From: Panopea generosa
Taxonomy: Eukaryota; Mollusca; Bivalvia; Adapedonta; Hiatellidae
NCBI GenBank assembly: GCA_029582155.1
Contig: CM055897.1
Span: 95,405,582-95,469,581, forward strand
Length of the DNA stretch: 64,000 nucleotides
Reading direction: 5' to 3'
Part shown: positions 3,377 to 41,000 of the stretch, piece after piece
Numbering within the stretch: position 1 is the stretch's first letter
Layout: the number at the start of each line of letters is the position of its first letter
Made by a program: the position numbers and the translations under genes
Notes under the pieces: generated by a model
Seen by the model: only the letters and a program-made list of their open reading frames with translations
What the model was told of the DNA's origin: nothing
Databases searched by the model: none

Positions 3377-3830
3377 TGTCGGTTAACAGCTATACATAGC
3401 TAATGCTTTGTGTCGGTCAATAGCTATACATAGCTAATGCTTTGTGTCGGTCAATAGCTATACATAGCTAATGCTTTGTGTCGGACAATAGCTATACATA
3501 GCTAATGCTTTGTGTCGGTCAATAGCTATACATAGCTAATGCTTTGTGTCGGTCAATAGCTATACATAGCTAATGCTTTGTGTCGGTCAATAGCTATACA
3601 TAGCTAATGGTTTGTGTCGGTCAATAGCTATACATATCTAATGATTTGTTATGTCGGTCAATAGCTATTCGTAGCTAATGTTTTGTTGTGTCGGTCAATA
3701 GCTATATATAGCTAATGTTTTGTAGTGTCGGTCAATAATTATGCATAGCTAATGTTCTGTTGTGTCGGTCAATAAATATACATAGCTAAAGATTTGTTTT
3801 GTCGGTCAATAGCTATACATAGCAAATGTC
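3377..3830. repeat. 34-bp minisatellite with internal palindrome
   Basis: About thirteen tandem copies of a 34-35 bp unit that begins TGTCGGTCAATAGC and includes TAGCTATACATAGCTA, a near-perfect inverted repeat. The first eight copies are nearly identical. Copies to the right of about 3630 carry more substitutions and small length changes, so the left side looks younger or more recently homogenised. Confidence 0.92.
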
Positions 3831-5120: not shown

Positions 5121-5540
5121 TAAAAACTATAGTTCTGGGGAAAAAACTAAGTTAAATGCGTGCAGTTGTTAACCACTGAAAATAAGCCTGAAATTAAAGT
5201 ATTAATGCTCATGAAGCTTTTAAAATAAGATTGCTTATTAATAGGTTTACAGTCCCATCTTGAAAACAGAACACGCAGTCTATTATTGCTTCATTCTTGT
5301 CGTCATTAGTAAAATACACTATTCAAAAATACAAGAATTGATATCTTCTGTGATCTTTGGTCATCCAAGTGTATGTTTCGTTTCTTCTTAACTATTTGAA
5401 ATATGAGCAGATTACAAATATTGACGACTACCATCTTGTATACAATATATTCCATTATAAATGTATGTCATGTACCTGTATATTATGTATATATCAGTGT
5501 ATGTTCATGGACCATATTGACGGTTTGCATTAATATACAA
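5121..5540. other. Possible LINE 3' tail, otherwise nothing seen
   Basis: AT-rich sequence after the LINE remnant. The stretch at about 5455-5525 resembles LINE 3' untranslated sequence, but I cannot prove it. No host coding exon is visible. The 62-codon open frame at 5403-5591 lacks protein-family features. Confidence 0.35.
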
Positions 5541-5690
5541 CCAATCCTATCTAAAGCAGCCAGTCAAAAGTGGTCTCTTAAAACAGGTTAATTTGCAAAG
5601 AAATGGGAAATAGCGAATGCGGCTGCTTAAGACAAGTGGTTGTTCAATATAGGGGACCGCTTACACAGATTTGGCTGTAACAGAGAATAA
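5541..5690 (-). mobile_element. Short dispersed element related to the 56-bp satellite unit
   Basis: The segment has inverted, internally repeated blocks of the type TAAAGCAGCC, TGGTCTCTTAAAACAGG, GGCTGCTTAAGACAAG and GGACCGCTTACACAG. This pattern of alternating GCGGCC-like and CTTAAGACA-like blocks resembles a family of small non-autonomous DNA transposons with repeat-bearing ends. The reverse complement of 5627-5680 aligns without gaps to the 56-bp satellite unit of 20404-28614, with about 10 or 11 mismatches in 54 positions. This copy is therefore a single-copy relative of the satellite unit. Confidence 0.6.
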
Positions 5691-8037: not shown

Positions 8038-8606
8038 GGCGTGATATCGGAGGTTACAGATCAACCATGGCGTGATATCGGAGGTTACAGATCAACCATG
8101 GTGTGTTATCGGAGGTTATAAACCATGGCGTGATATCGGATGTTACAGATAAACCATGGCGTGCTATCGGAGGTTACAGATAAACCATGGTGTGTTATCG
8201 GAGGTTACAGATAAACCATGGTGTGTTATCGGAGGTTATAAACCATGGCGTGATATCGGAGGTTACCGATAAACCATGGCGTGATATCGGAGGTTACAGA
8301 TCAACCATGGTGTGTTATCGGAGGTTATAAACCATGGCGTGATATCGGATGTTACAGATAAACCATGGCGTGCTATCGGAGGTTACAGATAAACCATGGT
8401 GTGTTATCGGAGGTTACAGATAAACCATGGTGTGTTATCGGAGGTTATAAACCATGGCGTGATATCGGAGGTTACCGATAAACCATGGCGTGATATCGGA
8501 GGTTACAGATAAACCATGGTGTGTTATCGGAGGTTATAAACCATGGCGTGATATCGGAGGTTACAGATAAACCATTGCGTGCTATCGGAGGTTACAGATA
8601 AACCAT
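8038..8606. repeat. 31-bp minisatellite inside a retroelement RT region
   Basis: About twenty tandem copies of a 31-bp unit, with shorter 24-bp variants. The unit starts GGCGTGATATCGGAGG and ends AACCAT. A higher-order period of about 209 bp is visible: the variant GATATCGGATGTTACAG recurs at about 8130 and 8339 with the same following order of variants. In one frame the unit reads G-V-I-S-E-V-T-D, which matches reverse-transcriptase text, and RT-like sequence continues on both sides. Confidence 0.92.
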
Positions 8607-8835: not shown

Positions 8836-9763
8836 GTAATTATTGTTTTTTTTATCAAATTAATTTAATAAGTTTAATATTGGAATCATGATTGGATATC
8901 TATAACTTTTACGAGTAACTTAAAATGGACACACTCTATGAGATGTCCTGATGATTGATGGCGAGTACTTGTTAAACGAGATAAAGTGTATTCACCAAAT
9001 ACAAACGACATGTTAAAGTACTTTGGAAAGCGGAAGGTTAAGACGGGTTTTTAGTATGGCTGGGTTTTGAGTAGAAATGTGTTTGTTAAGATATGAGATG
9101 GGAACTATGTTAAGAAGCGTGCATATGTGTTAATATAATTTATTAAAGTTTAAATGACAGTTGTAATAATGATAAGAAATAAATGTATATGGAAAGTCCT
9201 GCTTTCTGTGTTAGTGATCTGTGATGTTGGAACAAGTTCTTGAAGTTTTTATGAAGAAACACTGGAAACCTTAAACATGTTTTTTTTTTGGAGGGGGGGG
9301 GGGGGGGGGGGGGGTTACCTCTCGATATATCAACGGCTGAACATTTCCTTGTCAGGGAAATTAAATAAAACAAAGAAATTAAAAATTAGAACATATTGAT
9401 GATTATCAATCATTTTTAAAGGATATATTTATTTAATATTACATTGCAGTATAAACGCTGTTGGTATAAACATTGGAAACGGTAGTATTTTGAACGACAT
9501 TCCTATCATTTGTATTTCTGTAAGCAGGCTTTTTTTGTAACAGAAAAGAGTTGTGTATTTTCTTTGTGTGAGGTTGTAACGTATAGAAGATAACATATGT
9601 CTTCACATAACCAGTTATCGAACAGAGTACAAAGTATACGGTAATCACAAGGTGTGAAAATTTACTAATTCTAAACTACACTTCAACAATTTTATGTCGT
9701 TCAAATTCTAATCATATACATTTTATGTTCATACATATATGAAGAGGACTCTTCATATACGAA
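8836..9763. other. Intergenic, no gene; contains a long G run
   Basis: AT-rich DNA. The only notable feature is the homopolymer at 9293-9314. Open frames here are short, overlap on both strands and show no family resemblance. Confidence 0.5.
9293..9314 (+). repeat. Poly(G) tract, about 22 G
   Basis: An uninterrupted run of about 22 G preceded by a T run and GGA. Such a run could form a G-quadruplex on the plus strand. Its exact length is also prone to sequencing error. Confidence 0.85.
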
Positions 9764-10340
9764 TCCAATGTATGTATAATATATACTATGTATAAATACA
9801 CATCCAGTGTATGTATAGTATATACTTTGTATATAACCATCCAATGTATGTATAATATATACTATGTATATATACACATCCAGTGTATGTATAATATATA
9901 CTATGTATATATACACATCCAGTGTATGTATAATATATACTATGTATATATACACATCCAGTGTATGTATAATATATACTATGTATATATACACATCCAG
10001 TGTATGTATAATATATATTATGTATATATACCCATCCAGTGTATGTATAATATACACTATGTATATATACCCATCCAGTGTATGTATACTATACACTATG
10101 TATATATACCCATCCAGTGTATGTATACTATACACTATGTATATATACACACCCAGTGTATGTATAATATACACTATGTATATATACACATCCAGTGTAT
10201 GTATAATATATACTATGTATATATATACCCATCCAATGTATGTATAATATATACTATGTATATATACCCATCCAATGTATGTATAGTATACACTATGTAT
10301 ATATGTACATCCAATGTATGTTTAATATATACTATGTATA
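9764..10340. repeat. 39-bp AT-rich minisatellite
   Basis: About fifteen copies of a 39-bp unit built from CATCCAGTGTATGTATA and ATATACTATGTATATATA. Because 39 is a multiple of three and the unit has no stop in several frames, open frames of 127 to 188 codons appear on both strands. These are by-products of the repeat and not genes: the translations are simple Tyr/Ile-rich repeats. Confidence 0.95.
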
Positions 10341-12916: not shown

Positions 12917-13297
12917 ATGCCGATCCAGCATCGTACCTGCCGATTCGGCACCGTACCTGCCGGTCCGGCACTGTGCCTACCGATCCGGCACCGTGCCTGC
13001 CGATCCGGCATCGTACCTGCAGATCCACCACCGTACCTGCCTGTCCGGCACCGTGCCTGCCGATCCGGCATCGTACCTGCGGGTCCAGCATCGTACCTGC
13101 CGATCCGGCACCGTACCTGCCGGTCCAGCACCGTGCCTGCCGATCTGGCATCGTACATGCCAATCCGGCACCGTGCCTGCCGATCCTGCATCGTACCTGC
13201 GGGTCCAGCATCGTACTTGCCTATCCGGCACCGTACCTGCCGGTCCAGCATCGTGCCTGGCGATCAGACATTGTACCTGCCGGTCCAGCACCATGCC
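12917..13297. repeat. 20-bp GC-rich minisatellite
   Basis: About nineteen copies of a 20-bp unit close to CCGATCCGGCACCGTACCTG. It is strongly GC-richer than the AT-rich surroundings. The unit is nearly stop-free, so frames of about 98 to 188 codons stay open on both strands. The translated products are Cys/Arg/Pro-rich repeats and are not evidence for a gene. The array is followed almost at once by a MITE at 13311. Confidence 0.95.
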
Positions 13298-19190: not shown

Positions 19191-19876
19191 CTATAACGAC
19201 TACTGTAAATAACGTTTAGACAATCATATACACGTTTGTAACTTAATTACTGGCATAGCTGTTCAATATACTGTCATAAGACTATAATAGTGAGTGACAA
19301 CATTGTCGTTTACGACAATCATATACACGGTTAGTAACTCAGTTACTGACATAGCTGTTCAATATACTGTCATAAGACTACAATATTGTGTGACAACATT
19401 GTCGTTTAAGACAATCGTATACACGGTTAGTAACTCAGTTACTGACATAGCTGTTCAATATACTGTCATAAGACTATAATAGTGAGTGACAACATTGTCG
19501 TTTAAGACAATCATATACACGGTTAGTAACTCAGTTACTGACATAGCTGTTCAATATACTGTCATAAGACTATAATAGTGAGTGACAACATTGTCATTTA
19601 AGACAATCATATACACGGTTAGTAACTCAATTACTGACATAGCTGTTCAATATACTGTCATAAGACTACAATATTGTGTGACAACATTGTCGTTTAAGAC
19701 AATCGTATACACGGTTAGTAACTCAGTTACTGACATAGCTGTTCAATATACTGTCATAAGACTACAATATTGTGTGACAACATTGTCGTTTAAGACAATC
19801 ATATACACGGTTAGTAACTCAGTTACTGACATAGCTGTTCAATATACTGTCATAAGACTATAATAGTGATTGACAA
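19191..19876. repeat. 96-bp tandem repeat
   Basis: Seven copies of a 96-bp unit. The motif CTGTCATAAGACTA recurs at 19271, 19367, 19463 and onward to 19847. The first copy is the most diverged. The unit contains two short palindromes (GACAACATTGTC; AGTAACTCAGTTACT). Because 96 is a multiple of three, short frames stay open, but the translation is only a 32-residue repeat. The array ends 45 bases before the splice acceptor of the first coding exon of the Dispatched-like gene. Confidence 0.95.
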
Positions 19877-19940
19877 CATTGTAGTTGGGGAATATTAGTT
19901 TTGTTTTTACTTTTGCAACAGTAATAAGAAAAAAAGTAAT

Positions 19941-20076
19941 ATGGAAATAGACTGGTCGGCAGAGGAGAGGGAAGCTCGGATGGAAATGGAGGCACTAGAC
20001 AGACAAAAGAAGAGACGGGAACAGGAACCATTGCTGTACTGTAAACTTGTAACACGTTGGCCACTGAGGACGTTTT
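19941..20076 (+). CDS. Dispatched-like gene, coding exon 1 (N-terminus)
   Basis: It codes residues 1-45 plus one base. The start has a strong context (A at -3, G at +4) and is preceded by an acceptor (tttttacttttgcaacag, ending at 19921). The exon ends at a strong donor, GTGAGT, at 20077. The peptide is acidic then basic (EEREAR, RQKKRR) and ends YCKLVTRWPLRTF, like the segment before TM1 in Dispatched proteins. One base is left over, which matches the two-base start of the exon at 37674 and makes Leu46. Not seen in any longer reading frame, so it is assigned by phase and composition. Confidence 0.65.
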
Positions 20077-23000
20077 GTGAGTATATATTAAACAACATCC
20101 TAAATGACGTTCCTTCGATTGTATTTATACTTTTATTCAAGCAGGTGTATTTATTTTCAAAGCATTGTTATATGTGTAACATAGACCGTCCCCACCATAA
20201 TTACCTGTTTGCCTAATTACTCTTGGAACGCATGGTCCAGTGATGGAACATTGGACACAGGATCAGTCGGGCGGGTTCGATCCTCCGCCACGGCTATGTG
20301 TAGTATTTTTTAGCAAGACACTTTATCCACATATGTTTCGAGCGTGACTGGTCTAAGTTACAATAATCGATGTATTATAAAATATAAGTTTTAAACAAAA
20401 AACAATACAGTCAAATCTGTGTTGGCGGTCAACTCTGATGGTCAACCACTTGTCATAAAAATACAGCCAAACCTGTGTAAGCGGTCTACTCTGACTGTCA
20501 AACACTTGTCATAAAAATACAGCCAAACTTGTGTTGGCGGTCAACTCTGATGGTCAACCACTTGTCATAAAAATACAGCCAAACCTGTGTTGGCGGTCTA
20601 CTCTGATGGTCAACCACTTGTCATAAAAATACAGTCAAACCTGTGTTGGCGGTCAACTCTGATGGTCAACCACTTGTCATAAAAATACAACCAAACCTGT
20701 GTAAGCGGTCTACTCTTACTGTCAAACACTTGTCATAAAAATACAGCCAAACTTGTGTTGGCGGTCAACTCTGATAGTCAACCACTTGTCATAAAAATAC
20801 AGCCAAACCTGTGTTGGCGGTCTACTCTGATGGTCAACCACTTGTCATAAAAATACAGTCAAACCTGTGTTGGCAGTCAACTCTGATGGTCAACCACTTG
20901 TCATAAAAATACAGCCAAACCTGTGTTGGCGGTCAACTCTGATGGTCAACCACTTGTCATTAAAATACAGTCAAACCTGTGTTGGCGGTCAACTATGATG
21001 GTCAACCACTTGTCATAAAAATACAGACGAACCTGTGTTGGCGGTCAACTCTGATGGTCAACCACTTGTCATAAAAATACAGCCAAACCTGTGTTGGCAG
21101 TCTACTCTGATGGTCAACCACTTGTCATAAAAATATAGTCAAACCTGTGTTGGCGGTCAACTCTGATGGTCAACCACTTGTCATAAAAGTACAGCCAAAC
21201 CTGTGTAAGCGGTCTACTCTGATGGTCAAACACTTGTCATAAAATACAGCCAAACTTGTGTGGGCGGTCAACTCTGATGGTCAACCACTTGTCATAAAAA
21301 TACAGCCAAACCTGTGTTGGCGGTCTACTCTGATGGTCAACCACTTGTCATAAAAATACAATCAAACCTGTGTGGCGGTCAACTCTGATTGTCAGCCACT
21401 TGTCATAAAAATACAATCAAACTTGTGTTGGCGGTCTACTCTGACGGTCAACCAATTGTCATAAAAATATAGTCAAACCTGTGTAAGCGTTCTACTCTGA
21501 TGGTCAACAACTTGTCATCAAAATACAATCAAACATGTGTTGGCGGTCTACTCTGATGGTCAACCACTTGTCATAAAAATACAGCCAAACCTGTGTTGGC
21601 GGTCTACTCTGATGGTCAAACACTTGTCATAAAAATACAATCAAACCTGTGTTGGCGGTCTACTCTGATGGTCAACCACTTGTAATAAAAATGCAATCAA
21701 ACCTGTGTTGGCGGTCTACTCTGATGGTCAACCACTTGTCATAAAAATACAATCAAACCTGTGTTGGCGGTCTACTCTGATGGTCAAACACTTGTCATAA
21801 AAATACAATCAAACCTGGGTTGGCGGTCTACTCTGATGGTCAAACACTTGTCATAAAAATGCAATCAAACCTGTGTGGCGGTCAACTCTGATGGTCAACC
21901 ACTTGTCATAAAAATACAATCAAACCTGTGTTGGCGGTCTACTCTGATGGTCAACCACTTGTCATAAAAATACAATCAAACCTGTGTTGGCGGTCTACTC
22001 TGATGGTCAAACACTTGTCATAAAAATGCAATCAAACCTGTGTTGGCGGTCTACTCTGATGGTCAACCACTTGTCATAAAAATACAATCAAACCTGTGAT
22101 GGCGGTCAACTCTGATTGTCAACCACTTGTCATAAAAATACAGCCAAACCTGTGTTGGCGGTCTACTCTGATAATGTCAACCATTTGTCATAAAAATACA
22201 GCCAAACCTGTGTAAGCGGTCAACTCTGATGGTCAACCACTTGTCATAAAAATACAGTCAAACCTGTGTTGGCGGTCTACTCTGATGGTCAACCACTTAT
22301 CATAAAAATACAATCAAACTTGTGTTGGTTGTCTACTATGATGGGCAACTACTTGTCATAAAAATACAGTCAAACCTGTGTAAGCGGTCAACTCTGATGG
22401 TCAACCACTTGTCATAAAAATACAATCAAACCTGTGTAAGCGGTCTACTCTGATGGTCAAACAATTGTCATAAAAATACAGTCAAACCTGTGTAAGCGGT
22501 CAACTCTGATGGTCAACCACTTGTCATGAAAATACAATCAAACCTGTGCTGGCGGTCTACTCTGATGGTCAACCACTTGTCATAAAAATACAGTCAAACC
22601 TGTGTTGGTGGTCTACTCTGATGGGCAACCACCTGTCATAAAAATACAATCAAACCTATGTTGGTGGTCTACTCTGATGGTCAACCACTTGTCATAAAAA
22701 TACAGCCAAACCTGTGTTGGCGGTCAACTCTGATGGGCAACCACTTGTCATAAAAATACAGCCAAACCTGTGTTGGCGGTCTACTCTGACGGTCAACCAC
22801 TTGTCATAAAAATACAGTCAAACCTGTGTTGGCGATCAACTCTGATGGTCAACCACTTGTCATTAAAATACAGCCAAACCTGTGTTGGCGGTCAACTCTG
22901 ATGGTCAACCACTTGTCATAAAAATACAGCCAAACCTGTGTTGGCGGTCAACTCTGATGGTCAACCACTTGTCATAAAAATACAGCCAAACCTGTATTGG

Positions 23001-26000
23001 CGGTCTACTCTGATGGTCAACCGCTTGTCATAAAAATACAATCAAACCTGTGTTGGCGGTCAACTCTGATGGTCAACCACTTGTCATAAAAATACAGCCA
23101 AACCTGTGTAATCGATCTACTCTGATGGTCAAACACTTGTCATAAAATACAGCCAAACTTGTGTTGGCGGTCAACTCTGGTGGTCAACCACTTGTCATAA
23201 AAATACAGCCAAACCTGTGTTGGCGGTCTACTCTGACGGTCAACCACTTGTCATAAAAATACAGTCAAACCTGTGTTGGCGATCAACTCTGATGGTCAAC
23301 CACTTGTCATTAAAATACAGCCAAACCTGTGTTGGCGGTCAACTCTGATTGTCAACCACTTGTCATAAAAATACAGCCAAACCTGTGTTGGCGGTCAACT
23401 CTGATGGTCAACCACTTGTCATAAAAATACAGCCAAACCTGTATTGGCGGTCTACTCTGATGGTCAACCACTTGTCATAAAAATACAATCAAACCTGTGT
23501 TGGCGGTCAACTCTGATGGTCAACCACTTGTCATAAAAATACAGCCAAACCTGTGTAATCGATCTACTCTGATGGTCAAACACTTGTCATAAAATACAGC
23601 CAAACTTGTGTTGGCGGTCAACTCTGATGGTCAACCACTTGTCATAAAAATACAGCCAAACCTGTGTTGGCGGTCTACTCTGATGGTCAACCACTTGTCA
23701 TAAAAATACAATCAAACCTGTGTTGGCGGTCTACTCTGATGGTCAATCACTTGTCATAAAAATACAATCAAACCTGTGTTGGCGGTCTACTCTGATGGTC
23801 AATCACTTGTCATAAAAATACAGCCAAACCTGTGTTGGCGGTCTACTCTGATGGTCAACCACTTGTCATAAAAATACAGTCAAACCTGTGTAAGCGGTCT
23901 ACTCTGATGGTCAACCACTTGTCATTAAAATACAGCCAAACCTGTGTTGGCGGTCTACTCTGATGGTCAACCACTTGTCATAAAAATACAGTCAAACCTG
24001 TGTAAGCGGTCAACTCTGATGGTCAACCACTTGTCATAAAAATACAATCAAACCTGTGCTGGCGGTCTACTCTGATGGTCAACCACTTGTCATAAAAATA
24101 CAGCCAAACCTGCGTTGGCGGTCTACTCTGATGGTCAAACACTTGTCATAAAAATACAATCAAACCTGTGCTCGCGGTCAACTCTGATGGTCAACCACTT
24201 GTCATAAAAATACAGCCAAACCTGTGTTGGCGGTCTACTCTGATGGTCAAACACTTGTCATAAAAATGCAATCAAACCTGTGTTGGCGGTCTACTCTGAT
24301 AATGTCAACCACTTGTCATAAAAATACAATCAAACCTGTGCTGGCGGTCAACTCTGATGGTCAACCACTTGTCATAAAAATACAGTCAAACCTGTGTTGG
24401 CGGTCTACTCTGATGGTCAGCCACTTGTCATAAAAATACAGCTAAAACCTGTGCTCGCGGTCAACTCTGATGGTCAACCACTTGTCATAAAAATACAGTC
24501 AAACCTGTGCTGGCGGTCTACTCTGATGGTCAACCACTTGTCATAAAAATACAATCAAACCTGTTTTGGTGGTCTACTCTGATGGGCAACCACTTGTTAT
24601 AAAAATACAGTCAAACCTGTGTAAGCGGTCAACTCTGATGGTCAACCACTTGTCATAAAAATACAATCAAACCTGTGTAAGCGGTCTACTCTGATAGTCA
24701 ACCACTTGTCATGAAAATACAATCAAACCTGTGCTGGCGGTCTACTCTGATGGTCAACCAATTGTCATAAAAATACAGCCAAACCTGTGCTGGCGGTCTA
24801 CTCTGATAATGTCAACCACTTGTCATAAAAATACAATCAAACCTGTGCTGGCGGTCAACTCTGATGGTCAACCACTTGTCATAAAAATACAGCCATACCT
24901 GTGTTGGCGGTCTACTCTGATGGTCATACACTTGTCATAAAAATACAGCCAAACTTGTGTTGGTAGTCTACTCTGATGGTCAACCACTTGTCATAAAAAT
25001 ACAATCAAACCTTTGCTGGCGGTCTACTCTTATGGTCAACCACTTGTCATCAAAATACAATCAAACCTGTGTTGGCGGTCTTCTCTGATGGGCAACCACT
25101 TGTCATAAAAATACAGCCAAACCTGTGTTGGCGGTCTACTCTGATGGTCAACCACTTGTCATAAAAATACAGCCAAAACTGTGTTGGCGGTCTACTCTGA
25201 TGGTCAACCACTTGTCATAAAAATACAATCAAACCTGTGTTGGCGGTCTACTCTGATGGTCAATCACTTGTCATAAAAATACAATCAAACCTGTGTTGGC
25301 GGTCTACTCTGATGGTCAATCACTTGTCATAAAAATACAGCCAAACCTGTGTTGGCGGTCTACTCTGATGGTCAACCACTTGTCATAAAAATACAGTCAA
25401 ACCTGTGTAAGCGGTCTACTCTGATGGTCAACCACTTGTCATTAAAATACAGCCAAACCTGTGTTGGCGGTCTACTCTGATGGTCAACCACTTGTCATAA
25501 AAATACAGTCAAACCTGTGTAAGCGGTCAACTCTGATGGTCAACCACTTGTCATAAAAATACAATCAAACCTGTGCTGGCGGTCTACTCTGATGGTCAAC
25601 CACTTGTCATAAAAATACAGCCAAACCTGCGTTGGCGGTCTACTCTGATGGTCAAACACTTGTCATAAAAATACAATCAAACCTGTGCTCGCGGTCAACT
25701 CTGATGGTCAACCACTTGTCATAAAAATACAGCCAAACCTGTGTTGGCGGTCTACTCTGATGGTCAAACACTTGTCATAAAAATGCAATCAAACCTGTGT
25801 TGGCGGTCTACTCTGATAATGTCAACCACTTGTCATAAAAATACAATCAAACCTGTGCTGGCGGTCAACTCTGATGGTCAACCACTTGTCATAAAAATAC
25901 AGTCAAACCTGTGTTGGCGGTCTACTCTGATGGTCAGCCACTTGTCATAAAAATACAGCTAAAACCTGTGCTCGCGGTCAACTCTGATGGTCAACCACTT

Positions 26001-29000
26001 GTCATAAAAATACAGTCAAACCTGTGCTGGCGATCTACTCTGATGGTCAACCACTTGTCATAAAAATACAATCAAACCTGTGTTGGTGGTCTACTCTGAT
26101 GGGCAACCACTTGTCATAAAAATACAGTCAAACCTGTGTAAGCGGTCAACTCTGATGGTCAACCACTTGTCATAAAAATACAATCAAACCTGTGCTGGCG
26201 GTCTACTCTGATGGTCAACCAATTGTCATTAAAATACAGCCAAACCTGTGCTGGCGGTCTACTCTGATAATGTCAACCACTTGTCATAAAAATACAATCA
26301 AACCTGTGCTGGCGGTCAACTCTGATGGTCAACCACTTGTCATAAAAATACAGCCATACCTGTGTTGGCGGTCTACTCTGATGGTCATACACTTGTCATA
26401 AAAATACAGCCAAACTTGTGTTGGTAGTCTACTCTGATGGTCAACCACTTGTCATAAAAATACAATCAAACCTCTGCTGGCGGTCTACTCTTATGGTCAA
26501 CCACTTGTCATCAAAATACAATCAAACCTGTGTTGGCGGTCTTCTCTGATGGGCAACCACTTGTCATAAAAATACAGCCAAACCTGTGTTGGCGGTCTAC
26601 TCTGATGGTCAACCACTTGTCATAAAAATACAGCCAAAACTGTGTTGGCGGTCTACTCTGATGGTCAACCACTTGTCATAAAAATACAGCCAAACCTGTG
26701 TTGGCGGTCTACTCTGATGGTCAACCACTTGTCATAAAAATACAATCAAACCTGTGTTGGCGGTCTACTCTGATGGTCAACCACTTGTCATAAAAATACA
26801 ATCAAACCTGTGTTGGCCGTCTACTCTGATGGTCAAACACTTGTCATAAAAATACAATCAAACCTGTGTTGGCGGTCTACTCTGATGGTCAACCACTTGT
26901 CATAAAAATACAGCCAAACCTGTGTTGGCGGTCTACTCTGATGGTCAAACACTTGTCATAAAAATACAGCCAAACCTGTGTTTGCGATCAACTCTGATGG
27001 TCAACCACTTGTCACAAAAATACGATCAAACCTGTGTTGGCGTTCAACTCTGATGGTCAACCACTTTGTCATAAAGATACAGCCAAACCTGTTTTGGCGG
27101 TCAACTCTGATGGTCAACCACTTTGTCATAAAAATACAGCCAAACCTGTGTTGGCGGTCTACTCTGATGGTCAACCACTTGTCATAAAAATACAGCCAAA
27201 CCGGTGTTGGCGGTCTACTCTGATGGTCAACCACTTTGTCATAAAAATACAGCCAAACCTGTGTTGACGGTCTACTCTGATGGTCAACCACTTGTCATTA
27301 AAATACAGCCAAACCTGTGTTGGCGGTCAACTCTGATGGTCAACCACTTGTCATAAAAATACAGCCAAACCTGTGTTGGCGGTCAGCTCTGATGGTCAAC
27401 CATTTGTCATAAAAATACAGCCAAACCTGTGTTGGCGGTCAACTCTGATGGTCAACCACTTGTCATAAAAATACAGCCAAACCTGTGTTGGCGGTCAACT
27501 CTGATGGTCAACCACTTGTCATAAAAATACAGCCAAACCTGTGTTGGCGGTCTACTCTGATGGTCAACCACTTGTCATAAAAATACAATCAAACCTGTGT
27601 TGGCGGTCTACTCTGATGGTCAACCACTTGTCATAAAAATACAGCCAAACCTGTGTTGGCGGTCTACTCTGATGGTCAACCACTTGTCATAAAAATACAA
27701 TCAAACCTGTGCTGGCGGTCTACTCTGGTAGTCAACCACTTGTCATAAAAATACAGCCAAACCTGTGTAAGCGGTCTACTCTGATGGTCAACCACTTGTC
27801 ATAAAAATACAGTCAAACCTGTGTTGGCAGTCAACTCTGATGGTCAACCACTTGTCATAAAAATACAATCAAACCTGTGTTGGCGGTCTACTCTGATGGT
27901 GAACCGCTTGTCATAAAAATACAGCCAAACTTGTGTTGGCGGTCTACTCTGATTGTCAACCACTTGTCATAAAAATACAGCCAAACCTGTGTTGGCGGTC
28001 AACTCTGATGGTCAACCACTTGTCATAAAAATACAGCCAAACCTGTGTTGGCGGTCAACTCTGACGGTCAACCACTTGTCATAAAAATACAATCAAACCT
28101 GTGTTGGCGGTCTACTCTGATGGTCAACCACTTGTCATAAAAATACAATCAAACCTGTGCTGGCGGTCTACTCTGATGGTCAACCACTTGTCATTAAAAT
28201 ACAGCCAAACCTGTGTAAGCGGTCTACTCTGATGGTCAAACACTTGTCATAAAAATACAATCAAACCTGTGTTGGCGGTCAACTCTGATGGTCAACCACT
28301 TGTCATAAAAATACAACCAAACCTGTGTTGGCGGTCTACTCTGATGGTCAACCACTTGTCATAAAAATACAGCCAAACCTGTGTTGGCGGTCAACTCTGA
28401 TGGTCAATCACTTGTCATAAAAATACAGCCAAACCTGTATTGGCGGTCAACTCTGATGGTCAACCACTTGTCATAAAAATACAATCAAACTTGTGTTGGC
28501 GGTCTACTCTGATGGTCAACCACTTGTCATTAAAATACAATCAAACCTGTGTTGGCGGTCAACTCTGATGGTCAACCACTTGTCATAAAAATACAGTCAA
28601 ACCTGTGTTAGCGGCCCACTTCCTTCCTCTGACTGACTGCTTAAGACAATTTATACTGTACTTGTCTAAATTGCAATAGTAATGGAACGATCACAGTTAT
28701 TAAAAACAATATATTTTAAAGCAAGTATTCCCCCGCACCGGCTTATACTTAGTTCACTGCATAAACTGGATCCAATTATCGTAATATCGTTATAAATAAA
28801 CGGCATATAATTATATAAATATTGAAGAGTTACAAACAATACATAAAATAACACAAAGAAACATCCAACACACACATACGCACGCTCGCACACACATACA
28901 TACACACACGCGCGCATGCACGCTCGCACACATACACTCACGCATGCTCGTAATGTTCGCACTCATACACACGCATGAACTGATGCACACGCATATCCGG

Positions 29001-32000
29001 TCTTGCACGCTCGAGCATACGCACACAAACCTCCAGCCTATGGTTATTACATTTTAAGTGAGTGATGTTAACAAACACAACGTAAATTGAACTCGAACAT
29101 AATTTCCAGCATATATGCATATGTATAGACAATTACAATATATAGCATATACAATATACACAATACTCATATATATATATATTGCAGGCGATATTGCCAA
29201 TATCCTAAATATATAACTTTTACTCACTGTTACACTGGATAATTATATTATGGAATATATTATTTTTGCAAATAAATGACCCTGGAGATTACACAGTTGA
29301 CTGAAGCATGTTAGTTTATAGTAATATTTGTCCGATTCTATTGACTTGTGGCCAATCAGGCATACAGAGACTTGAGTCCGCGTATTTGTTACAATACCTT
29401 GCAAAAATTGATACACATTCGATTAAAGCGTTCCAGAGCTAACAACCGTGCATCATTCATGTTACTACTCAACTCGCATCCATAAAAAGCTTTTGGAAGA
29501 ACAACATATCGTAAATATTATATACCGTTAAGGGATGTAAGTCTTGCTTATGGACATCACTACATACAACACCAAACAAGGCTCTTCTCCGTTTGTTTGC
29601 GGCCTCTGCTATGGCCAATTCTGTATCCTAATATTGATGATATATCATTCCTGGATGAGTGTACTGATTACACTCGGTTACGTGTTTGGGTCCTAATCGC
29701 AATATGCGTCTTATATTTCTAAAATCGTGAGTTTTCATAAAAAACAACAACAGCAGCGAATGTGCACAGTCCTAAGTCTGAATCATTTAACTGCTTGAGG
29801 TGTCCAGCAATAAACAACAAATAGAGCATAAAACTTGTTACCCACTCTGCTGCCTCTACAGAGAACCAGTCTAAATAAAACCCCTGAAATTTAACACAAG
29901 TCTCTAAATCTGATATCGTTTCTCGGTTTGTTACCACCATTAAATAATGGGATAATTTTCATGATTTTTTTATATATATGATAGTTGTAATACAGTTGTG
30001 CAGTTATTTCTAGCTATCTTATACTGCAGGGTGTCATTGTCTTCTCAATATCTCCTTTACACTTGATTAACAATTTTACCCAACACTATTTTATACTGTA
30101 CCATAAATTTAGTTTATACTGTACCATTAGCTTATTTATCCATTAAATTAGTTTATGCTGTACCATTAGTTTAGTTTATACTGTACCATTAGTTTAGTTT
30201 ATACGGTACCATTAGTTTTGTTTATGCTGTACCCTTAGTTTAGTTTATACTGTACAATTAGTTTAGTTTATGCTGTACCATTAGTTTAGTTTATTATGTA
30301 CCATTAGCTTACTTATCCATTAGTTTAGTTTATGCTGCATCATTAATTTAGTGTATACTGTACCATTAGTTTTGTTTATGCTGTACCCTTAGTTTAGTTT
30401 ATACTGTACAATTGGCATACTTATCCATTAGTTCAGTTTATGCTGTACCATTAGTTTAGTGTATACAGTACCATTAGTTTTGTTTATGCAGTACCATTAG
30501 TTTAGTTTATTATGTACCATTAGCTTACTTATCCATTAGTTTAGTTTATGCTGTACCATTAGTTTAGTTTATGTTGTTCCATTAATTTAGTTTGAACTGT
30601 ACCATTAGTTCAGTTTATACTGTACCATTAGTTTAGTTTGTACTGTACTTTTAGTTTAGTTTATACTGTACCATTAGTTTAGTTTGTACTGTACCGTTAG
30701 TTTAGTTTATACTGTACCATTAGTTAAGTTAAGTTTGTACTAATTTATTTTAGCTCGATTGCGACAGTAGACAGCCTCCGTAGTAGAGTATTGTTGTTTT
30801 TTTGACAGAAGTATCGGGTTGAGCTGGGAATCGAACCTGCAACCTCTTGTACATTACCTCCTAAACTTCTTATCTGAATTTAGGCCGAACGTACTAATGC
30901 GATATCTATTTGCGAATATTGTTGTCATTTTCTGGTACATCGACTTTTTACGTAGTTGTTGCCCTTTCACTGTTTTTATTGATAATTTATGTCGCCAATA
31001 CTTTCCTAAACTTTTCATCTAATTTTTGGCAAATGTATCAGCATGAAATCCAGTTTTGCATGCTGTCATTGCGTTTCGATTCGCCGGAGTTTGATACTTT
31101 TAATTGAAAATGATGTCTGCCCCACTCCTCCTAACCATCTCGTCTAATTTTGACCAAATTTGTCACGGAATATTAGTATGAAATTGAAGCCCACCTGCGG
31201 TACCTTGCAGTTATGTGTAACTTTCCAATACGGGATTTAAACACAGTTAAATGTTGATTTGGACGACTAAGCATCACATCACGTTTTTTTATTTCTAAAC
31301 AATGCGTACATTTTATTTTCATCAATAAACAACTGATGATTTAAGACTAAAAGAAATGATTCCATTTTTATGTATATATGATTACTTCGAAATTTCTTAT
31401 TGTGTAGTTAAAAAGTACTCTTTTTTCGATCTGGAATGCGAAAAGACACCCGTACTTTGTCTGTTTCCTTGGTATTATGAAACTCATTTAGTATTGTCAG
31501 AATATCGCGTATACAAGTGCTGGAGTGTGATATATTTTACCATACCTCATGAACCAGTGCTGGAGTGTGATATATTTTACCATACCTCATGAACCAGTGC
31601 TGGAGTGTGATATATTTTACCATACCTCATGAACCAGTGCTGGAGGGTGATATATTTTACCATACCTCATGAACCAGTGCTGGAGGGTGATATATTTTAC
31701 CATACCTCATGAACCAGTGCTGGAGTGTGATATATTTTACCATACCTCATGAACCAGTGCTGGAGTGTGATATATTTTACCATACCTCATGAACCAGTGC
31801 TGGAGGGTGATATATTTTACCATACCTCATGAACCAGTGCTGGAGGGTGATATATTTTACCATACCTCATGAACCAGTGCTGGAGTGTGATATGTTTTAC
31901 CATACCACATGAACCAGTGCTGGAGGGTGATATATTTTACCATACCTCATGAACCAGTGCTGGAGGGTGATATATTTTACCATACCTCATGAACCAGTGC

Positions 32001-35000
32001 TGGAGTGTGATATGTTTTACCATACCTCATGAACCAGTGCTGGAGTGTGATATATTTTACCATACCTCATGAAACAGTGCTGGAGTGTGATATATTTTAC
32101 CATACCTCATGAACCAGTGCTGGAGGGTGATATATTTTACCATACCTCATGAACCAGTGCTGGGGGTGATATTTTTTACTATACCTCATGAACCAGTGCT
32201 GGAGTGTGATATATTTTACCATACCTCATGAACCAGTGCTGGAGGGGGATATATTTTACCATACCTTATGAACCAGTGCTGTAGGGTGATATATTTTACC
32301 ATACCTCATGAACCAGTGCTGGAGTGTGATATATTTTACCGTACTTCATGAACCAGTGCTGGAGTGTAATATATTTTACCATACCTCATGAACCAGTGCT
32401 GGAGGGTGATATTTTTTACCATACTTCATGAACCAGTGCTGGAGGTGATATTTTTTACCATACCTCATGAACCAGTGCTGGAGGGTGATATTTTTTACCA
32501 TACCTCATGAACCAGTGCTGGGGGTGATATGTTTTACCATACCTCATGAACCAGTGCTGGAGTGTGATATATTATACCATACCTCATGAACCAGTGCTGG
32601 AGGGGGATATATTTTACCATACCTCATGAACCAGTGCTGGAGTGTGAAATGTTTTACCATACCTCATGAACCAGTGCTGGAGTGATATATATTTTACCAT
32701 ACCACATGAACCAGTGCTGGAGTGTAATATATTTTACCATACCTCATGTACCAGTGCTGGAGTGTAATATATTTTACCATACCTCATGAACAAGTGCTGG
32801 AGGGGGATATATTTTACAATACTTCATGAACCAGTGCTGGAGTGAGATATAATATACCATACCTCATGAACCAGTGCTGACCATACCTCACGAAACAGTG
32901 CTGGAGGGTGATATATTTTACCATAGCTCATGAACCAGTGCTGGAGGGGGATATGTTTTACCATATCTCATGAACCAGTGCTGGAGGGGGATACATTTTA
33001 CAATACCTCATGAACCAATGCTGGAGTGAGATATATTTTACCATACCTCATGAACCAGTGCTGGAGTGAGATATATTTTACCATACCTCATGAACCAGTG
33101 CTGGAGGGTGATATTTTTTACCATACCTCATGAACCAGTGCAGGGGGGTGATATTTTTTACCATACCTCATGAACCAGTGCCCAGTGCTGGAGGGGGATA
33201 TATTTTACCGTTACTCATGAACCAGTGCTGGAGTGTGATATATTTTACCATACCTCATGAACCAGTGCTGGAGTGTGATATATTTTACCATACCTCATGA
33301 ACCAGTGCTGACCATACTTCATGAAACAGTGCTGGAGGGGGGATATATTTTACCATACCTCATGAACCAGTGCTGGAGTGTGATATATTTTACCATACCT
33401 CATGAACCAGTGCTGACCATACTTCATGAAACAGTGCTGGAGGGGGGATATATTTTACCATACCTCATGAACCAGTGCTGGAGTGTGATATATTTTACCA
33501 TACCTCACGAAACAGTGCTGGAGGGTGATTTATTTTACCATACCTCAAGAACCAGTGCTGTAGTGTAATATATTTTACCATACCTCATGAACCAGTGCTG
33601 GAGTGTGATATATTTTACCATACCTCATGAACCAGTTCTTGAGTGTGATATATTTTACCATACCTCATGAACCAGTGCTGACCATACCTCATGAAACAGT
33701 GCTGGAGGGGGATATATTTTACCATACCTCATGAACCAGTGCTGGAGTGTGATATATTTAACCATACCTCATGAACCAGTGCTGACCATACCTCATGAAA
33801 CAGTGCTGGAGGGGGATATAGTTTACCATACCTCATGAACCAGTGCTGGAGTGAGATATATTTTACCATACCTCATGAACCAGTGCTGACCATACCTCAC
33901 GAAACAGTGCTGGAGGGCGATTTATTTTACCATAGCTCATGAACCAGTGCTGGAGGGGGATATGTTTTACCATATCTCATGAACCAGTGATGGAGGGGTA
34001 TAAATTTTACCATACCTCATGAACCAGTGCTGACCATACATCATGAACCAGTGCTGGAGGGTGATATATTTTACCATACCTCATGAACCAGTGCTGGAGG
34101 GTGATATATTTTACCATACCTCATGTACCAGTGCTGGAGGGGGATATATTTTACCATACCTTATGAACCAGTGCTGGAGTGTGATATATTTTACCATACC
34201 TCATGAACCAGTGCTGACCATACCTCATGAAACAGTGCTGGAGGGGGATATATTTTACAATACCTCATGAACCGGTGCTGGAGGGGGATATATTTTACCA
34301 TACCTCATGAACCAGTGCTGACCATACCTCATGAAACAGTACTGGAGGGGGATATATTTTACCATACCTCATGAACCAGTGCTGGAGTAAGATATGTTTT
34401 ACCATACCTCATGAACCAGTGCTGACCATACCTCACGAAACAGTGCTGGAGGGTGATTTATTTTACCATACCTCATGAACCAGTGCTGGAGGGGGATATG
34501 TTTTATCATATCTCATGAACCAGTGCTGGAGGGGTATAAATTTTACCATACCTCATGAACCAGTGCTGACCATACATCATGAACCAGTGCTGGAGGGTGA
34601 TATATTTTACCATACCTCATGAACCAGTGCTGGAGGGTGATATATTTTACCATACCTCATGCACCAGTGCTGGAGGGGGATATATTTTACCATACCTTAT
34701 GAACCAGTGCTGGAGTGTGATATGTTTTACCATACCACATGAACCAGTGCTGGAGTGTAATATATTTTACCATACCTCATGAACCAGTGCTGACCATACC
34801 TCATGAAACAGTGCTGGAGGGGTATATATTTTACCATACCTCATGAACCAGTGCTGACCATACCTCACGAAACAGTGCTGGAGGGTGATTTATTTTACCA
34901 TACTTCATGAACCAGTGCTGGAGTGTAATATATTTTACCATACCTCATGAACCAGTGCTGGAGGGGGATATATTTTACCATACCTCATGAACCAGTGCTG

Positions 35001-38000
35001 GAATGTGATATATTTTACCATACCTCATGAACCAGTGCTGACCATACCTCATGAAACAGTGCTGGAGGGGGATATATTTTACCATACCTCATGAATCAGT
35101 GCTGGAGTTTGATATATTTTACCATACCTCATGAACCAGTGCTGACCATACCTCATGAAACAGTGCTGGAGGGGGATATATTTTACCATACCTCATGAAC
35201 CAGTGCTGGAGTGAGATATATTTTACCATACCTCATGAACCAGTGCTGACCATACCTCACGAAACAGTGCTGGAGGGTGATTTAATTTACCATAGCTCAT
35301 GAACCAGTGCTGGAGGGGGATATGTTTTACCATATCTCATGAACCAGTGCTGGAGGGGTATAAATTTTACCATACCTCATGAACCAGTGCTGACCATACA
35401 TCATGAACCAGTGCTGGAGGGTGATATATTTTACCATACCTCATGAACCAGTGCTGGAGGGTGATATATTTTACCATACCTCATGTACCAGAGCTGGAGG
35501 GGGATATATTTTACCATACCTTATGAACCAGTGCTGGAGTGTGATATATTTTACCATACCTCATGTACCAGTGCTGGAGGGGGATATATTTTACCATACC
35601 TCATGAAACAGTGCTGGAGGGGGATATTTTTTACCATACCTCATGAACCAGTGCTGGAGGGGGATATATTTTACCATACCTCATGAACCAGTGCTGGAGG
35701 GTGATATTTTTTACCATACTTTATGAACCAGTGCTGGAGGGGGATATATTTTACCATACCTCATGAACCAGGGCTGGAGGGGGATATATTTTACCATACC
35801 TCATGAACCAGTGCTGGAGGGTGATATATTTTACCATACCTCATGAACCAGTGTTGGAGGGTGATATTTTTTACCATACCTCATGTACCAGTGCTTGAGG
35901 GGGATATATTTTACCATACCTCATGTACCAGTGCTTGAGGGTGATATATTTTACCATACCTCATGAACCAGTGCTGGAGGTGATATTTTTTACCATACCT
36001 CATGTACCTGTGCTGGAGGGAAATATATTTTACCATACCTCATGAACCAGTGCTGGAGTGTGATATATTTTACCATTCCTCATGAACCAGTGCTGACCAT
36101 ACCTCATGAAACAGTGCTGGAGGGGGATATATTTTACCATACCTCATGAACCAGTGCTGGAGGGGGATATATTTTACCATACCTCATGAACCAGTGCTGG
36201 AGTGTGATATATTTTACCATTCCTCATGAACCAGTGCTGACCATACCTCATGAAACAGTGCTGGAGGGGGATATATTTTACCATACCTCATGAAACAGTG
36301 CTGGAGGGGGATATATTTTACCATACCTCATGAACCTGTGCTGGAGTGTGATATATTTTACCTTACCTCATGAACCAGTGCTGGAGTGTGATATATTTTA
36401 CCATACCTCATGAACCAGTGCAGGGGGGTGATATATTTTACCATACCTCATGAACCAGTGCTGGAGTGTGATATATTTTACCATTCCTCATGAACCAGTG
36501 CTGACCATACCTCATGAAACAGTGCTGGAGGGGGATATATTTTACCATACCTCATGAATCAGTGCTGGAGGGGGATATATTTTACCATACCTCATGAACC
36601 AGTGCTGGAGGGGGATATATTTTACCATACCTCATGAAACAGTGCTGGAGGGGGATATATTTTACCATACCTCATGAAACAGTGCTGGAGGGGGATATAT
36701 TTTACCATACCTCATGAACCAGTGCTGGAGTGTAATATATTCTACCATACCTCATGAACCAGTGCTGGAGTGTGATATATTTTATATATTTATATTTATT
36801 GTTATTTTCTTTCTTGCACAAGGTCTATGTTTCCAAGAGCCAAAATGTACATTGACTCAATATTGATAAGACTTGGACGCAGTGTACTGCTTTTCAGATG
36901 TCTTTCTTTCGACATCAGTCGTCAAAGATGGACGCAAGGACAAAGACATATATTTTTTTTTCATTTAAAAACTTTTAATTACATTTCCTTTGAAATCACT
37001 GGAACGTTTTTTATTCAAATGAAATTGTTACCCTGGTTACCTTCTACCAAAATAACTGTGTCTGAGCATTAAGCAGAATGGCAGTCGTGGCTATTTCCTC
37101 GTTTTTATGTAAGGAACACTTTTTTTAATAAAAATGGTCACATTATAAATGTTTGTTCGAAATAGATAATCTAAAACGGCAAACAAGGCCTCACCAAATT
37201 TAAGATTTAAAAAATTAAATGACATCTCTTAAACTATTGAACCATTTTCATTGATTTTTTTCTTAGATAATTTACCTGGTGGTTCTCCTCCAACATTGTG
37301 TTGTTTTGAGTGTTAAACAAGATGATCACCATGGTCCCGCCATTTTCACAAAGGCTAATATAGAGAAAAGTTAAACAATCTTTGTTCTATGCTTTTTGAA
37401 TGCTAGGGGTTTGATATGTGTTTAAGTGTTGACGATAATGATGTTACTCTGTTTGAACCGAAATGAACGAATTGAATTTAATTGAAAATTTGAAAAATAT
37501 TAAATAAGTGAACTATTCTCAAAATTATTGCAAGTGTATACATGTTAAACAATATGGTTGCACTGGCTCAATCAGTCAAAATGAATCAGGTGATGGGTTT
37601 GGGCTCGTGTGTGCCTCTTGTTTAATGAACAAGAAATTTTGTTTTAACCATGATTTGATTTCCACTTTTTCAGTACTCACGTTATCAGCTCATTTGATCA
37701 TGATAATTGCTTCTGCCATACTACTGGCCTCAGGGTACGACCTTTTGCCACTAAGCTTTGAAGATGTTCCGCTCCATATATACGACAGACCGTGGGAACC
37801 ACGTGGTTACGCATGGCAAAGTAGAAACGACTATCCGGGGTACTATGACAGAACTCCAACAGACGGTCCGAGGACACAGATGGACAGGGAATATGCAAGC
37901 ATTGAAGTCTATTACGATGCCGGGAATGGAGGAAATATATTTACCAAAGCTTCACTCGAAAAGATGCAAGAAATTGAAAATAGTGTCATGGAAGCAAAGG

Positions 38001-41000
38001 ATTACCACAAATACTGTCAGTTGAATTCGGTTAATAACAATTGCACAAAAGCCGTTTCAGTATTGCGATATTTCGATGGAACCTACAAGAAAGTTAATCC
38101 AGTATTAAACGATCCAGGGTTTGAAAACATTCCAAAGGTTTTGTTTGAGGCTCTCACGAATACAATAACAAAGAAACAATTTCAATTTTTTCTCGGCACG
38201 TCATATAACATAACAGCAACGGAAGCGACTTCTTGGATCACAAGGTCAATAATTCCTTTCGGATACCCGCTGGAAAACTATGAAAATGATAATGACGGTT
38301 TTCGAGATATTCTAGAGACCTATTCCGCCGAGAATGTCAAACCAATTTTAGAAAAATACCATGACGAAGTTACGGAATTCGATTTTTCCTACGTATCACG
38401 AGTTATGTGGATAGAAGAAGTTACTGGACAAGCAATGCTAGATGTTCGCTGGGCGGGTGCCAGTATAGGGTTTATTTTCTTTCTAATTTTATTCCACACT
38501 AGATCTCTGTGGATTACAGCCCTCGCCATTCTCAGTATAATCGCAAGTTTTATCACCACAAACTTAATCTACAACCTCGTGCTGGGTTTTCGCTACCTTG
38601 GATTTTTCCATATCTTGGCACTTTTTGTTGTTCTTGGTATAGGGGCAGATGATATTTTTATATTTTACGACATATGGCGAAATACTGCTTGTGAGAAATA
38701 TCCGAGTCTTGCTCATCGTCTTTCAGATGCTTACCGGAAGTCGGTCTTCAGCATGTTGTTTACTTCTTTAACTACTGCAGTTGCGTTCTTTTCGAGTGCA
38801 ATAACTTCGTTATTGGCAACACGATCGTTTGGTATATTTTCAGCCGTGGTCATAATTGTGAACTACATTTCCATAATTGTATATTTTCCAACTGTTGTGA
38901 TAATGCACCATACATATTTTGAAAAATTTCAATGGCCATGCTTCTTTTTTTGGAAAAAAGTATGCGGTAAAACATATAATTCGTCAGATGGCGCTGGTAA
39001 AGAGGAAAGTGAACCTAAATCAAAGTACGCAGTTGACAACGATTCTTTTGCCGCTGATGAAAATCTAGCATCTTCAATATCAGGTACACACAGGATTGAA
39101 CATTCATCAAACACATATAATGGAAGCATATATATAGCTGAAGATAATCCGGATATAAGAAATATAACAATCAACGATTCGGCAAAAAACGGAACTGTGT
39201 ATCAAGGAGACATCCATAGCACATGGAAAGGTAGCAGAGAAGTATTTGTAATTAAACATTCCTTTATTGATACGGAAAAGGATATTATATCGAATAACAC
39301 ACACGCAAAAAGAAGTCAAAATGGTGTCCACAGAAGTGTTCCGAAGCGTTTAAACAACCACGACAATTCGTTTGATAATACCAACAGTGTTCTTAGTAAA
39401 AGTCCAACAACACACAAGTCCTTCGTGGCGAAACAAAAACGTTTCAAGGAAGTGGACGATATTGCAAAAACATACAAAAGTCAATCAAAACAAGTAAAAG
39501 CGAAAAAGCCTCTAATGGTCCGTTTCTTCAGAAGATATTATTTTGCATTTGTGACGCACAGAGTAATTCGTTGGTTGATACTGTTGGTACTGATGGCGAT
39601 ATTGGGTTTCTTCATTTACCAGGCATCAACGCTCGAACCTGACAATGAATTAGTAAGTATTCGTTTCTTTTTCTGAAGATTCAGTGTTGTTGTTCTAAAA
39701 AGTTTCATTGAAGTATAAATATTTAGAACTAAATCTGTAGTTTTGAACACATTCCTTGTGCAAAAATTAAATGGAATCAGTTAAGGATGCTAACGACTGT
39801 CGTTTATAGGAGATATTATATAGATGTTATTATATAGATGACACTGTATAGATGATTTATAGTAGATATTATATAAATGATTTATAGAAGACACTATATA
39901 GATGATACTATATAGATGATTTATAGTAGATACTATATAGATGATTTATAGTAAAAGCTATATAGATGATTTATAGTAGATACTATATAGATGATTAATA
40001 GTAAATACTTTATAGATAATTTATAGTAGATACTGTAAAGATGATTTATAAAAGATACTATATAGATGATTTATAATAGATACTGTATAGATGATATCAA
40101 ATGAGTGCTCATTTATTATTGATGCTATTTTTTTATTAAATCTCTTTCCAAGATGCTATAAATAATGCAATCTGATAATAAAGTAAAATACACCCTACTA
40201 TGTTTACATAGAATAATAATTATAAAGTATCGGCTGTAAATAACATTGGTGCCGTATTTCATGAAATTTAGTAAATGGTCAAAGGCATACTGCTACCGTT
40301 TAGCTGATACATTTGAATCTTACGGGAACGGTTTTAATTATTTCGTCTTGAACAGCATTAACCTTCAGGTACACATTGGGTTGACCATCGTAAATCGTCA
40401 AGCATGTCCCCAGCATGACTAGTATTATGCCATCTCCTACACGTCCATCGAGCTGCTTTGTACCACTTCAGTTAATTAGCCATTACTCATTGAGGCGTTA
40501 GTTGTACTTTTTGAAAATGTTGCTTGTTTCGCATTTCATGTATTGAGGTAGTATAGATTGTAGTTTAGACAGTATGTATAATATATATATATATATATTC
40601 AAATTCATGTAACAAAAATTAAGTATAAACATTATTATAATGTGTCAAGAAATTCAATTATTTTTTCCCCGCCACTTAATCTTCTCTCCCCACTGAGTTG
40701 TAAAAACACTTAGTAGGACTTGAAAAAATGAAAATCCAAGCAAGACAGTTTTAACGACTCGTTTTTTTTTTTAAAGGAAATCAAAGTGAAAAGCCAGTGG
40801 GTATTGTACTTTTCTGCATAAAGCATTATATTCTATATCTTGTATTGTATTCAATATATCTACTGGCCAAAACACTTTAAAATCTCTATGTATAATGACT
40901 GTAACACAAATTTTTATATTCGAGAAATATAAGCAGGTGCTAGTTTATATGATACATGTTCATTTAAAAGAGATATTTGATGACCGTTTTTTAATCAAAG

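Follow-up and report, generated by a model that had tools for sequence, protein, structure and literature searches.

The start of a satellite array is hard to see once the array is mature, and a long array of 56-bp units in the bivalve Panopea generosa raises the question of where such a unit comes from. The array lies at 20404-28614 of the window, the 64,000-nucleotide stretch analyzed here (contig C4, positions 95,405,582-95,469,581, from a genome of 1.474 Gb in 39 contigs), where Tandem Repeats Finder (TRF) reports 146.4 copies with 91% matches. An earlier interpretation made from the letters of the window, referred to below as the sequence-only reading, had proposed that the satellite grew from the end of a small DNA transposon. 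Our analysis bears this out, in that the unit is the 5′ end of a miniature inverted-repeat transposable element (MITE) of 178 bp, the other end of the element stands beyond the array, and growth took place inside one insertion. We assign a probability of about 0.92 to an origin in which the 5′ end of this MITE was duplicated in tandem within its own insertion and then amplified, with other copies of the family having gone through a like process independently.

The unit and the element that contains it

A genome search with positions 5541-5690 of the window, where the sequence-only reading had placed a relative of the unit, gave 1,933 first-look candidates, and all 40 of those scored match, the window included. 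Forty loci were fetched, two of which are arrays (L040 and L041). The other 38 and the window copy yield 42 MITE segments, because three loci (L048, L063 and L072) carry two close copies each. This sample is biased, since resemblance to 5541-5690 decided the choice of 18 loci and resemblance to the 56-bp unit that of the other 20. The many dispersed copies that had been foreseen do exist; sampled copies have one unit-like segment, at the 5′ end, and a copy with two units is found on C11. The copy in the window occupies 5536-5679 on the minus strand, its two TAs included, and is an element of 140 bp with about 38 bp missing inside.

All 42 segments align as one element that begins with CAGTCAAACCTGTGTAAGCGGTCACC and ends with GCTTAAGACAGGTTTGACTG between TA dinucleotides. 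Both ends are recognized in 39 segments, and 29 of these 39 have TA on both sides, the remaining ten deviating at one side. A length of exactly 178 bp is the commonest (18 of 39; range 140-184). The consensus has terminal inverted repeats (TIRs), CAGTCAAACCTGT and ACAGGTTTGACTG, and the flanks of sampled copies, as printed, look unrelated. Short similar copies at unrelated sites, inverted ends and a TA target-site duplication, read here from occupied sites, are the marks of a MITE, and the TA target is that of the Tc1/mariner superfamily. The CAGT end is presumably pogo-like, which we take as a candidate placement only. Helitrons or Helentrons with central repeats carry those repeats between ends that have no inverted repeats and make no TA duplication; such an element is ruled out by the inverted ends, the TA flanks and the presence of the terminus inside the unit.

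The window array (20408-28614, plus strand, 147 profile matches) is made of units that join nucleotides (nt) 1-51, approximately, of the MITE to AAA and TA, with a spacing of 56 bp in 129 of 144 intervals. Its first unit begins at the MITE 5′ terminus, at 20408, and the position of TACAGTC together with the TA rule of the family identifies 20406-20407 as the target-site dinucleotide at the 5′ edge of the expanded element. At the other edge, alignment places the 3′ end of the same MITE at 28600-28658 of the plus strand, joined to the last partial unit and followed by TA at 28659-28660. Positions 28621-28660 align to the final 40 positions of the MITE consensus with its TA flanks, and the tail-only alignment score of 45 compares with a best of 30 in 2,000 shuffles. 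A similarity in “block style” that had been remarked at 28613-28650 is therefore real, being the MITE 3′ end. The MITE interior is absent from the window array, lost probably at AACCTGTNTTA. At the join, AACCTGTGTTA of the unit meets the MITE-internal AACCTGTCTTA, so a deletion between these similar words, as read from the alignment, probably removed the interior.

Other arrays and the first duplication

The unit search located a second array on the minus strand of the same contig, at C4:14,217,426-14,223,087, which is 81 Mb from the window array. Flanking sequences of the pair are 83-91% identical on both sides. In this paralogous array the MITE interior (TTAAACAGCCACATC...CTTCCCTGACTGACTG) follows the last unit and stops before the 3′ terminus. 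On C12, the remainder of the MITE, as far as its 3′ end, comes after an array of 54-bp units, some of them shortened; the array comprises 24 profile matches, 17 of them near-complete, and there is one weak match outside it. The MITE on C11 has two 5′ units, after which the element continues to a 3′ terminus that has decayed. Hence, at C4, C12 and C11 alike, units homologous to the MITE terminus lie in or adjoin their source element.

Breakpoints on the MITE side were determined by local alignment at the seven loci with readable junction letters. They fall at nt 51 for C4 (both arrays taken together) and at nt 52 for both C11 and C12, such that a breakpoint at nt 51-52 is common to three loci. 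The arrays C2:34.12, C2:89.44 and C3:54.21 break at nt 32, 29 and 32, respectively, and C1:79.15 breaks at nt 39 in a gapped alignment. The sequence TTAAG occurs in the MITE at nt 31-35 and 48-52, and the longer TTAAGCAGCC at nt 31-40 and 48-57. As single-stranded DNA, the MITE has a predicted fold of −31.6 kcal/mol, compared with a shuffle mean of −16.6 (z −5.54).

These observations are best explained by the following course of events. A 178-bp non-autonomous, TA-flanked MITE inserted, probably in an intron of a Patched-family gene, and its first ∼51 bp, with TA and about three adjoining bases, was then duplicated in tandem inside the element. Slippage or a template switch close to the pair of internal TTAAGCAGCC repeats might account for this first step. 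Either repeat could pair by sequence with the 3′ hairpin arm (the predicted fold uses the first), which might give rise to the two breakpoint groups. The array subsequently grew while being homogenized by unequal exchange, and gene and array were duplicated along the same chromosome. Finally, the window copy lost the MITE interior, such that its array runs straight into the MITE 3′ end; the paralogous copy kept the interior and lost the 3′ terminus.

A different first step, in which the element's own transposase cuts both the true end and a cryptic end inside the MITE and repair then goes wrong, is unlikely but retains some appeal. The CAGCC that follows TTAAG resembles the end CAGTC, the C11 and C12 breakpoints fall exactly before CAGCC at nt 53, and TA precedes CAGTC in the typed units of C4, C11, C12, C2:34.12 and C3. 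However, the C2 and C3 arrays break at nt 29-32 with no CAG directly after, and the C1 unit and many units of C2:89.44 have no TA before CAGTC.

The absence of TA from those units also weighs against tandem duplication of the MITE end with its TA, as do two further observations. The filler between units corresponds to the present host flank in the C4 arrays only (AA before TA), and not at C11 or C12; a general rule in which each unit is host flank plus TA plus MITE start therefore fits C4 and fails at the other two loci. In addition, a genome search with the right edge of the array (28590-28720), for which the sequence-only reading had anticipated dispersed relatives, returned only its own place; the short length and the divergence of the MITE 3′ end at this edge are the probable cause.

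It is very improbable that the satellite came first and that the MITE captured it or was built from its units. A published model, put forward for miDNA4 in Xenopus according to a review account, has repeats that already exist captured by a MITE (PMC12628747). Against such an order of events in the present case, TA flanks are found on sampled MITE copies, which look unrelated outside them, the arrays read differ in unit length and have the MITE terminus alone in common, and the C4, C11 and C12 arrays pass into MITE interior that is foreign to the unit. The C4 arrays also carry states that are absent from the MITE consensus. Still less credit is due to repeated nested or side-by-side insertion of MITEs as the builder of the array. 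Two close copies do occur at 3 of the 38 fetched loci, but the units contain the first ∼51 bp only, their spacing is too uniform, as noted above, and no arrays of full-length MITEs were seen that could have served as a source. Both of these origins are rejected on anatomy, namely the unit spacing, the C12 array, the C4 paralogue and the C11 copy.

The comparison from which the sequence-only reading started was an ungapped match over 54 positions between the reverse complement of 5627-5680 and the unit. That match holds against the TRF consensus unit, with 41 of 54 positions identical, although the 10 or 11 mismatches counted by hand become 13 when measured. A scan of the window with the array left out listed, as its 15 top ungapped matches, 5627-5680 and small shifts of it. 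Chance can be dismissed as the source of the likeness between the unit and this one further place in the window, since the best of 5,000 dinucleotide shuffles, a check that had itself been suggested, reached 29 of 54 (mean 22.0), and the genome holds a family with at least 40 scored copies.

History of the array pair and its gene setting

The two C4 arrays have identical consensus units. Divergence is 7.6% within the window array (144 near-complete units), 14.8% within the paralogue (91 near-complete units of 102 profile matches) and 12.4% between the two, and the window array has been homogenized more than its paralogue since the duplication. A sign of recent unequal exchange inside the window array is an internal duplication on the plus strand, in which 23591-24677 recurs at 25108-26194, an offset of 1,517 bp, with 99.45% identity over 1,087 bp. 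It was found with an offset scan, used in place of a megablast self-comparison for higher-order structure, which gave no output. Because the chromosome carries gene and array twice, in copies that have diverged, the array formed before the duplication. The window array itself is most likely functionless, and we claim no function for it.

The sequence-only reading had taken the minor variant GTGTAAGC to be ancestral within the array. Both of the variant states it quoted exist there (TTGG in 100 and TAAG in 17 of 144 units read), but the proposed polarity is not supported and the evidence leans against it. In the paralogue, 57 of 93 units read have TTGG, 15 have TTAG and 2 have TAAG, and this prevalence of TTGG and TTAG suggests that the founder was probably a copy of the TTGG or TTAG type. 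Distances to the MITE consensus are nearly equal in the window array (0.231 for TAAG units and 0.236 for TTGG units); the corresponding paralogue values are 0.231, from two TAAG units only, and 0.268. The sampled MITE copies nearest to both array consensuses, at 0.161, are L060 and L062, of the TTGG and TTAG types, and the next three, at 0.179, include one TAAG copy (L063b). The sampled MITE copies most often carry TAAG (24 of 42, two unreadable); the way in which copies were chosen biases this sample. TAAG may therefore be ancestral to the MITE family even if it is not ancestral within the array.

The array likely lies within an intron of a Patched-family gene. The intron setting had been part of the sequence-only reading, and we retain it as likely, judging from exon-like open reading frames (ORFs) on either side. 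Upstream, on the plus strand, is an exon-like segment at 19941-20165 (MEIDWSAEERE...; no Pfam match), whose relatives are at C4:14,223,331 and C4:95,377,338 (three matches including itself, of nine candidates). Downstream, a large exon-like ORF at 37508-39676, also on the plus strand, has Patched and sterol-sensing domain matches in Pfam, to which it was compared as 37511-39676. The ORF at 476-898 has a sub-threshold Pfam match to MMPL, and those at 19899-20213 and 48789-49175 have no match in Pfam. Two exon-like ORFs, 476-901 and 48789-49178, look much alike by eye, which points to a tandem pair of Patched-family genes. The host gene, which we take to be Dispatched-like, would appear to have a neighbor ∼48 kb upstream as well as its distant copy.

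The flanks that match between the C4 arrays include, upstream, a 96-bp array and a stretch of dispersed repeat and, downstream, 28655-30605, where the fetched piece ends. In the window the 96-bp array spans 19213-19886 with 7 copies, and about two copies stand beside the paralogous array at C4:14.22 Mb; it is therefore probably older than the gene duplication too. No match between it and the MITE consensus was found at E values up to 10. The dispersed repeat at 20215-20338 matches elsewhere in 38 of 41 match rows, at 79-84%, and looks by eye only like a tRNA-derived short interspersed element (SINE); searches of the window with Rfam and ARAGORN gave no hits. An ORF at 52393-52716 appears by eye to be a piece of reverse transcriptase from a long interspersed element (LINE) and has no Pfam match. 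Ten larger tandem arrays, picked from 72 TRF rows, make up 17,306 of the 64,000 bases, about 27% of the window. Besides the 56-bp and 96-bp arrays, they are at 1-237, 3377-3828, 8038-8606, 9755-10340, 12918-13297, 30090-30730, 31516-36784 and 39811-40097.

Ends of the MITE family as possible satellite sources

The whole genome was scanned with exact-match patterns that require a MITE word to occur twice at a distance of 40-70 bp, with reversed patterns as controls. Matches numbered 429 for the 5′ end and 230 for a word from the 3′ end, compared with 9 (in five places) and 18 (in 17 places) for two interior words; the controls gave 0 for all four words. A second distance range gave 261 matches for the 5′ end, partly in the same arrays. 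By hand count, 5′ end pairs occur at 10 or more places on C1-C6, one being the C4 paralogue and several being single pairs, and pairs of the 3′ end word occur at 11 or more places on C2-C13, their 3′ identity being taken from the pattern alone. One of the latter, on C9, consists of two blocks of equal spacing 34 kb apart. Another region, C7:23297679-23303656, holds ∼6 kb of matches to the 3′ end word, largely with 35-bp spacing. The arrays outside C4 include those at C5:60.01, C7:12.81, C7:23.30 and C9:62.93 Mb. Unit lengths in the repeated arrays, from spacing or letters, are 35-61 bp, a range that is partly set by the patterns.

These counts raise the possibility, which we advance tentatively and would not yet favor over its negation, that the ends of the family are satellite hot spots. 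There would have been at least 20 independent starts, with units of ∼35-61 bp from both termini and with MITE-side breakpoints located at two TTAAGCAGCC repeats, which would compete to pair with the hairpin arm opposite. Several points from these scans weigh against the origin by tandem duplication of MITE ends that we favor above. Interior words form tandem pairs too, at 17 places (all but one of them single pairs) and at five, so the ends are not the sole seeds. Exact-match scans favor homogenized arrays. The interior controls are also uneven, because the 5′ word is kept far better in one half of the sample: exact 15-mers from the 5′ end, the 3′ end and the two interiors are found in 9, 8, 10 and 9 of the first 20 sampled copies, and in 19, 7, 0 and 3 of the other 22. 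Our reading is that the ends give long arrays more often than the interiors do, and that short tandem pairs arise in the interior as well.

Many of the 17 interior places, among them C16:32957363-32957493, C12:61069548 and C12:61555408, have the same match length of 73 bases. They perhaps reflect a MITE subfamily that moves with an internal duplication of ∼58 bp.

Satellites that derive from MITE ends are of a known kind, and the less usual part here is repeated births from one MITE family. Available accounts describe satellites from MITEs and TIRs for Xstir, miDNA4, Tetris and the pearl elements of bivalves (PMC12628747, PMC9659126, PMC5139131, PMC4079207). In searches on MITEs, satellites, tandem repeats and the letters of the terminus, no listed report was recognized as this element; the terminus letters brought up three papers, which by title and abstract deal with other subjects.

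The Xstir and Xmix sequences of Xenopus (Hikosaka and Kawahara 2004, as reviewed in PMC12628747 and PMC9659126) are alike in that MITEs, tandem arrays and composites of the two coexist. The source region of Xstir is the TIR in one review table and internal sequences in the other (PMC12628747, PMC9659126). Compared with Xstir as tabulated there, several arrays of differing unit length contain the MITE terminus in P. generosa, and the C4 pair reveals an array older than a gene duplication. Tetris, with TIR-220, of Drosophila virilis likewise exemplifies terminal-repeat tandem repeats of a DNA transposon that give satellite-like arrays; as described, it is a foldback element whose TIRs hold tandem repeats of ∼220 bp, whereas the MITEs sampled here have a single unit and the arrays are at single loci (PMC4079207). 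In miDNA4 of Xenopus tropicalis (Scalvenzi and Pollet 2014, as reviewed in PMC12628747 and PMC9659126), the unit is internal and thought to have been captured, whereas the present unit has the terminus and mostly TA. The pearl, CvA and DTC84 elements of bivalves are similarly modular and MITE-like, with internal tandem repeats that resemble known satellites such as BIV160 and Cg170 (PMC5139131); here, units of 35-61 bp, as read or as judged from spacing, come from the ends of the element itself.

A single element of P. generosa offers single-unit sources, a two-unit copy, an array of ∼24 units, and duplicated arrays of ∼100 and 147 units. With this series of unit numbers and a breakpoint common to three loci, a directing role of DNA hairpins at MITE ends in the first tandem duplication can be put to the test. 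If the ends of the family are indeed hot spots, duplications of two units and arrays of more than 100 would be the two extremes of a graded series in the genome, in which the first steps of satellite birth would be directly readable.

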